64,000 nucleotides of DNA from Neisseriaceae bacterium PsAf (lineage in GTDB: Bacteria; Pseudomonadota; Gammaproteobacteria; Burkholderiales; Neisseriaceae), in NCBI GenBank assembly GCA_017114885.1, contig WNLJ01000012.1, forward strand, positions 1 to 64,000. The letters run 5' to 3'. The notes beneath the pieces were generated by a model. It was not told where the DNA came from, searched no databases, and saw only the letters and a program-made list of their open reading frames with translations. Shown here piece after piece: positions 46,401-47,657 of the stretch. Position 1 is the first letter of the stretch. The number at the start of each line of letters is the position of its first letter. Both the position numbers and the translations under genes were made by a program.

Positions 46401-47657
46401 TCAATCACCTTTATTTTTTTTAAAATAAGGAATAAAAGCCCATAATTTACGATTTTCAAGGTAATTGAGGTTATCTTCATTGGCATAGGCTTCTCGCTCA
46501 AAAACGATATTAGCATAAGCTTTTTGTTTGTCTCGATAAATGATGAGATTAATCAAATAGTGAATGACGTAAATGAGATAAAATCCGATTAAAAGCAACT
46601 CTCTTTGCTGTGCAATGTGTATTTGCTCATGATTAATTAAAGTATCTGATAAGTAATTTTCATGACTGCAAAAAATAAATGGATAAAGGGTGATACCTGT
46701 AAAATTTTTTGGGGTGATTTTTCGACTAACAATAACAATTGGGGCTCTTTGTTTACCCCAATAATTCGCTAAAATGGAACCAGATATATTGTGCCAAATA
46801 CTAAATAAAGCACTCGGTAGAGCCGAGAGTGGCGAAAAAAATTGTAGCGCAATCGAACCAGCTAAGCCTGAATTTTGCATGCCTGTTTCAATAGCTATTG
46901 CTTTTGAATCATAACGAGATAAATTAAATAGTTGGGCAAAGGCATAACCCAAAAATAAACCGATTAAATTATGCAGAATAACTAAACCTATGACACTTAA
47001 TCCGTAAAGCAACATTGTTTCAGCATTTAAACCAGTGATGGCACATACAATCATGGCAACGAGGATAATTGATATTGAAGGTGCCCATTGTTTCATTCTG
47101 AAAGATAATTCTTTCAAAGTAATACTTAACCAAAAACCCATTAATACAGGAATAATAATCACTAAACTAATAGTAGTAAATAAGTCGAGCACTGAAATTT
47201 CAATCCATTGGCCTGCAAATAAATATAATAAAAAAGGTGTCATGATAGGAGCTAACAGGGTTGAAAGAGTGGTTGCACAGACAGATAAGGAAACATTTCC
47301 TTTGGCTAAATAAGTCATAATATTAGAAGCAGTACCACCAGGACAACAGCCTACTAGAATTAAACCCGTTGCAACTTCTGTGTTTGGTTTAAATAAATAA
47401 ATCAAAAGTAATGCCACTAGAGGCATAATCAAATATTGAGAGAGTAGGCATAATATAACCCCTTTGGGTGCCTGCATAACAGCTTTAAAATCATTTTGGC
47501 TGAGTGATAGACCAATCAAAAACATCACAGAAGCCAAAAGATAATTAATATAAGGAGCAATCCAAGTAAACCATTCGGGTTGTAATAAAGAAACTACAAC
47601 CAATAAGATAATAACAATAGAAAAATAATTGAAGAAGAATTGCGTTAGTCTTTGCAT
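46401..47657 (-). CDS. Bile acid:sodium symporter family protein fused to a HExxH domain
   Basis: A 418-residue protein made of two parts. Residues 1-305 are a complete bile-acid:Na+ symporter (BASS) protein with about ten helices, including GCCPGGTASNIMTYLAKG, ETGMQNSGLAG and NISGSILANYW. Residues 306-418 are a second domain with FTGITLYPFIF, the zinc-protease-like motif INHEQIHIAQQRE (HEQIH at 343-347), one or two helices and FEREAYANEDNLNYL. I recall the second part as a stand-alone small protein in Bacteroidota; that is memory, not a search. No stop separates them. A BASS protein could import an organic anion; a proteolytic role is speculative. Confidence 0.85.
   Translation of the reverse strand: MQRLTQFFFNYFSIVIILLVVVSLLQPEWFTWIAPYINYLLASVMFLIGLSLSQNDFKAVMQAPKGVILCLLSQYLIMPLVALLLIYLFKPNTEVATGLILVGCCPGGTASNIMTYLAKGNVSLSVCATTLSTLLAPIMTPFLLYLFAGQWIEISVLDLFTTISLVIIIPVLMGFWLSITLKELSFRMKQWAPSISIILVAMIVCAITGLNAETMLLYGLSVIGLVILHNLIGLFLGYAFAQLFNLSRYDSKAIAIETGMQNSGLAGSIALQFFSPLSALPSALFSIWHNISGSILANYWGKQRAPIVIVSRKITPKNFTGITLYPFIFCSHENYLSDTLINHEQIHIAQQRELLLIGFYLIYVIHYLINLIIYRDKQKAYANIVFEREAYANEDNLNYLENRKLWAFIPYFKKNKGD

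Follow-up and report, generated by a model that had tools for sequence, protein, structure and literature searches.

A bile-acid-symporter-like transporter fused in frame to a phrog_15610 HExxH domain in Neisseriaceae

We describe a gene of a Neisseriaceae bacterium, located in the window (the whole stretch of DNA analysed here, 64,000 nucleotides), which is a real and unusual domain fusion with each of its two parts being of a known kind. The reading that we favour, and regard as probable, is that of one protein consisting of a BASS (bile-acid-symporter-like) transporter and a cytosol-facing, membrane-associated mini-gluzincin that derives from Bacteroidota or their phages.

Results

The frame, described in an earlier note on this DNA as running uninterrupted through the BASS and HExxH parts, is indeed open for 418 codons as a single frame, with no stop at the junction and a plausible ribosome site ahead of the ATG. 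Its features, in window coordinates, are:

46401..47657, minus strand: whole fusion gene, 418 amino acids plus stop codon, ATG start, AGGA about 10 bases upstream
46749..47657, minus strand: BASS symporter domain, ASBT_NM/PanS-like, residues 1-303, Na+ and pantoate residues conserved
46740..46757, minus strand: junction, residues 301-306 (GKQRAP), without an in-frame start codon
46404..46739, minus strand: phrog_15610 / mini-gluzincin-like domain, residues 307-418
46617..46631, minus strand: HEQIH (HExxH), residues 343-347, two predicted zinc ligands and the predicted catalytic Glu
46536..46595, minus strand: hydrophobic helix, residues 355-374, between HExxH and the Glu helix
46488..46502, minus strand: FEREA, residues 386-390, with Glu387 the likely third zinc ligand

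The numbering given earlier for His343, Glu344, His347, Glu387 and Glu389 is correct, and FTGITLYPFIF, INHEQIHIAQQRE and FEREAYANEDN lie in the C-terminal part where they had been placed. Since in-frame ATG, GTG and TTG codons are absent from residue 260 (inside the BASS domain) to residue 354 (past HExxH), an intact second domain can only be obtained as part of the fusion.

The BASS part is a complete ten-helix domain, as had been proposed: PF01758 scores 140.3 bits against a cut-off of 24.3, and residues 3-303 match the solved structures of ASBT_NM (3zux/8oyf) with an E-value of ~1e-70. TIGR00841 scores 262 bits over 287 residues, under its curated 326.3, and the PanS equivalog NF047939 reaches 235.6 bits against a curated cut-off of 400, so the transported substrate is only a guess. 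The Na+/pantoate residues Q74, T109, S111, N112, S125, T129, E257, M260, Q261 and N262 are conserved in the fusion, and the alignment pairs them with the identical ASBT_NM positions Q77, T112, S114, N115, S128, T132, E260, M263, Q264 and N265; V261 of ASBT_NM is replaced by Thr. They belong to the substrate-binding crossover and the two sodium sites. The pantoate-binding positions of ASBT_NM are from the published work (PMC10645422). Judged from its sequence, the BASS half is probably a sodium-coupled transporter with pantoate or a similar small 2-hydroxy/2-keto acid as its substrate.

BASS proteins had been said to end after the helix resembling NISGSILANYW, and the homologues of the same family, the best group of which is 41-46% identical to the BASS half of the fusion, do end just past the aligned residues, at about residue 302, in some cases with a short charged tail added. 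BASS proteins of other family members are very close matches to ASBT_NM of Neisseria meningitidis, which points to Neisseriaceae as the family. The ten-helix domain and the sodium/pantoate residues are common to the fusion, ASBT_NM (3zux, 8oyf) and PanS-type BASS proteins, with an identity to family members of at most 46%; while those proteins stop near residue 302-330, the fusion adds 115 residues that make up a second domain.

Residues 308-409 match phrog_15610 (‘protease’) at profile positions 3-102 of 105 with an E-value of 7.8e-35, which puts the assignment of the C-terminal domain beyond chance; its identity to the nearest stand-alone proteins is 47-57%. In good agreement with the proposal that the second part exists as a short separate protein in Bacteroidota, a search with this domain alone, covering fusions and gene neighbours, confirmed at least 580 chromosomal relatives. 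The best 80 of these are nearly all from Flavobacteriaceae, and 79 of the 80 are ORFs of 100-139 amino acids, none of them fused. Strong matches are present in 42 of 296 evenly sampled Bacteroidota genomes, in open frames of 108-136 amino acids except for one of 214 that overlaps an opposite-strand gene. Among the Gammaproteobacteria sampled, the genome of the fusion is the one with a strong match (1 of 369), and among 60 relatives the congener alone has one. No other fusion was found in the 79 chromosomal copies, in 13 phage copies or in the 296-genome Bacteroidota survey.

Phage relatives amount to 115 records, nearly all with Bacteroidota hosts or from gut samples. In Riemerella phages it is flanked by tail genes on one side and holin/endolysin on the other, in Bacteroidales phages it is found near terminase, and the crAss-like member is labelled a putative zincin. 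With these phage proteins (crAss-like putative zincin superfamily protease; Riemerella phage RAP44 gp05) the fusion shares a full-length match, HExxH and FExEA; all copies that we read are separate proteins of ~105-130 amino acids, whereas in the fusion the domain is joined to a transporter. Pfam, NCBIfam and PADLOC assign no family to this domain: a match to SieB (E 0.015) is below that model's cut-off and due to chance, and PDB sequence matches are at chance level only. In the literature searched, we found no paper on a crAssphage zincin or on a symporter-metalloprotease fusion and no demonstration of zinc binding or proteolysis for any phrog_15610 member, ‘protease’ being an annotation.

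In Flavobacteriaceae the stand-alone gene is often followed by genes for a PLP-dependent enzyme, a LysM glucosaminidase and a class III aminotransferase, a neighbourhood that reveals no substrate. None of the 80 neighbourhoods has a BASS gene beside the stand-alone copy; our scan of viral contigs found no BASS gene, and the plasmid collection yielded no relative.

The residues that are invariant in 71 family sequences are, in domain numbering (add 300 for the fusion), P26, H43, E44, I46, H47, Q50, E53, Y63, A80, Y81, E87, E89 and Y99, and all of them are intact in the fusion. Chromosomal and phage copies alike retain HExxH and the two Glu of FExEA. The spacing of 40 between H347 and E387 of the fusion recurs between HExxH and FExEA in 72 of 79 chromosomal copies, and in the remaining 7 the Ala is replaced by Ser or Cys while both Glu are retained.

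AlphaFold2 predicts the fold of the fusion's domain with a pLDDT of 88.5 and a pTM of 0.81 (93.9 and 0.85 for a flavobacterial homologue). Structural comparison of the domain model lists the VgrG2b effector domain (Z 4.5, 95 residues aligned, rmsd 3.9), proabylysin (Z 3.0, 57, 3.3), BlaR1 (Z 2.9, 81, 4.4) and selecase (Z 2.1, 73, 5.4), and the homologue model again finds BlaR1 (Z 2.7, 76, 4.6). All listed neighbours of the domain model are HExxH gluzincins, at Z-scores of 2.1-4.5 that are weak and could alone mean a common arrangement; Foldseek searches of the PDB with the two models gave no match at an E-value below 1. Models with HEQIH buried in a helix and no metal-site geometry had been named as grounds for refutation; as far as the models allow a test this did not occur, the fold being confident and its weak neighbours gluzincins.

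By profile comparison, the nearest relatives of the domain are M56/BlaR1 peptidases. Weak matches of the phrog_15610 family in Bacteroidota are M56/BlaR1-type proteins, and hhalign against Bacteroidota M56 proteins gave a P-value of 8.6e-7 and a score of 43.7, whereas 25 column-shuffled profiles retaining HExxH scored no higher than 23.1 and masking of HExxH gave 27.6. The PF05569 (M56) cut-off is not reached, the fusion having no match and 2 of the 71 family members having matches with a best E-value of 0.061. A distant relation of the domain to M56/BlaR1 is supported by these comparisons. HExxH, the adjoining hydrophobic helix and the downstream Glu helix are common to the domain and M56/BlaR1 (clan MA(E)), but the domain is without the N-terminal transmembrane helices and the sensor of BlaR1 and has ExEA in place of E242xxxD. 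Proabylysin, selecase and the VgrG2b effector domain have a minimal gluzincin core, which the domain probably shares. They are soluble or are secreted as effectors (PMC6899460 for VgrG2b) and, unlike the domain, are not joined to a transporter.

BlaR1 binds zinc on the cytosolic side through His201, His205 and Glu242, next to a re-entrant helix (PMC9834060), and the site of VgrG2b, with the ligands H935, H939 and E983, sits at the upper end of a helix (PMC6899460). The structural alignment ends with model residue 98 on BlaR1 253 and 102 on 258, so that Glu87 (Glu387) coincides with Glu242 or is its neighbour. The hhalign register pairs Asn83 (Asn383), not Glu87, with the zinc-ligand Glu of M56; we prefer the structural register, and because of this competing one we call Glu387 the likely rather than the certain third zinc ligand. 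The earlier suggestion of a zinc-protease motif with a Glu of FEREAY as a ligand stands for the conserved motif and Glu, with the choice of Glu387 being a likely one that draws on the models. A zinc site in the domain is likely, and peptidase activity is a reasonable expectation.

A gammaproteobacterial ORF of 92 amino acids (L115, 1377-1655) with a weak phrog_15610 match has HEMQH and, 39 residues on, YEASAN. It is possibly a distant relative that retains only the first Glu of FExEA, which, if so, favours Glu387 over Glu389 as the zinc ligand.

The helix at residues 355-374 has a Kyte-Doolittle value of 2.2, typical of a membrane segment. It would pair with the HExxH helix as a hairpin, and since a straight crossing of the membrane would keep the two motif helices apart, a position that dips into the membrane or lies at its surface is more likely.

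In the congener (G001) the two parts are joined in the same frame and at the same place, in the order hemE-fusion-pepP, so the fusion predates the two species. The congener copy, 76% identical in DNA across both halves and the junction, is a pseudogene with ~39 indel events, several stops and HAQIH instead of HEQIH; the fusion gene is thus dispensable there, where the whole gene has been lost. At the first, second and third codon positions, the peptidase half differs from this copy by 25.2/16.5/34.5% and the BASS half by 23.9/14.6/33.2% (9.3/4.1/33.4% for the intact hemE pair), an estimate that is blurred by the pseudogene partner and in which selection before the decay and selection in this lineage are inseparable. 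The comparison suggests that both halves are equally constrained, which argues against the tail being a recent read-through accident and is as expected if selection acted on one branch or before the decay. On the congener's minus strand (L003, 1400-2900) the decayed copy lies adjacent to an intact hemE; the decay may reflect ongoing genome reduction in the genus.

In the peptidase tree the fusion is nested among sequences of Capnocytophaga, of a Cytophagales contig and of phages (support 83-91), its finer position unresolved, and in the BASS tree it sits on a long, unresolved branch. The best score of the BASS half is in its own family (279 bits vs 247 in sampled Bacteroidota). By its distribution, the peptidase-like domain is foreign to Gammaproteobacteria, and no genome was found with BASS and stand-alone domain genes side by side; horizontal acquisition must therefore precede the joining. 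Given the nested position of the peptidase half and the lack of a BASS gene near the stand-alone copies, gain of the small gene by transfer followed by joining is the most economical order. The simple origin proposed earlier, loss of a stop codon between neighbouring genes, is accordingly incomplete, since it leaves out the transfer that brought the foreign domain in.

Discussion

The scenario that we propose starts with a second domain that would have come from a Bacteroidota chromosome or phage into an ancestor of the genus, landed behind a BASS gene of the resident type and been joined to it in frame. In ASBT_NM, residues 1-10 shift across the cytoplasmic entrance (PMC10645422), and with a cytoplasmic N-terminus and ten helices the tail of the fusion should face the cytosol; this inferred topology would place it on the same side as the BlaR1 active site. 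His343, His347 and Glu387 are the predicted zinc holders and Glu344 the predicted catalytic base, in an arrangement that would resemble the cytosolic site of BlaR1. The most likely action of the domain would then be the cleavage of a protein on the cytosolic face of the membrane or close to it, with the fusion fixing the protease-like domain to the transporter as its anchor. Coupling of transport to cleavage is possible. A version following the logic of BlaR1, with the transporter as the sensor whose sodium- and ligand-driven movements switch the tethered gluzincin to cut a regulator or a membrane protein, strikes us as a long shot; if true, a solute carrier would directly control proteolysis.

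It is on sequence constraint that a function of the fused domain is argued, and a neutral origin has to be weighed against it. A stop codon may simply have been lost, leaving the peptidase domain as a harmless tail without a role of its own on a working transporter. Stop loss is a simple event, the fusion is known in one genus only and the congener copy is a pseudogene; but every family-invariant residue is intact, the frame stayed open while the congener copy took its ~39 indels, the third-position excess is equal in both halves and the genome holds no second copy of the domain, so we consider this unlikely, if worth keeping in mind. An HExxH protein that does no proteolysis and serves as a membrane anchor, a chaperone or an inhibitor of the transporter would agree with the membrane-like hydrophobicity of helix 355-374 and with ‘protease’ being an annotation of phrog_15610. 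The invariance of HExxH and both Glu of FExEA on chromosomes and in phages fits a metal site and not a structural tail, and makes this alternative distinctly improbable.

The fusion might also be made and then cut, so that the halves act apart and are fused for joint expression only. BlaR1, the distant relative, does cleave itself (PMC9834060), but in a linker of ~6 residues a cut would be hard to place without harm to one of the folds, and we rate this as very unlikely. As for an artefact of assembly or binning that joined genes of different organisms, which a Bacteroidota-type part inside a gammaproteobacterial genome might bring to mind, it is already refuted in practice by a second species, whose genome is a single contig and which has the same junction at the same place; the contamination estimate of 0.05 and the third-position G+C of 25% and 26% in the two halves also speak against it; its probability is negligible. 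The transporter with a membrane-associated mini-gluzincin remains our preferred reading.

The phrog_15610 family occurs in many Flavobacteriaceae genomes and in more than 100 phage records including crAss-like phages, and we found nothing on its role. With one member joined in nature to a transporter whose fold is known, there is a hint of the side of the membrane on which phrog_15610 proteins act and a means of expressing and assaying them; through the relation to M56/BlaR1, the catalytic site is open to direct tests. If active, the fusion would amount to a transporter that carries its own protease. We know of no such architecture.

Several copies of the domain deserve separate mention. In Riemerella phages (L009, 3709-6011) the stand-alone gene overlaps the one upstream of it and is immediately followed by holin, with endolysin one gene on, a position hinting at a role in lysis there. 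The copy of Shigella phage Henu10 (OQ791282.1, 42478-42789) is a Riemerella-phage copy with the same coordinates as in Riemerella phage PT15, which makes the host label doubtful, and on a contig labelled Rhizobium sp. Q54 (MAG) (L060) the genes surrounding the domain follow the order typical of flavobacteria, the contig having probably been binned wrongly. The recurrent neighbourhood in Flavobacteriaceae (L015, 134-5042; L029, 5059-6327) comprises urocanase, a DUF4136 lipoprotein, the PLP-dependent enzyme, the LysM glucosaminidase and the class III aminotransferase (hemL-like). Finally, the copy of the crAss-like phage cr113_1 (L161, 3495-3848) has in-frame stops where its relatives have sense codons, consistent with stop recoding.
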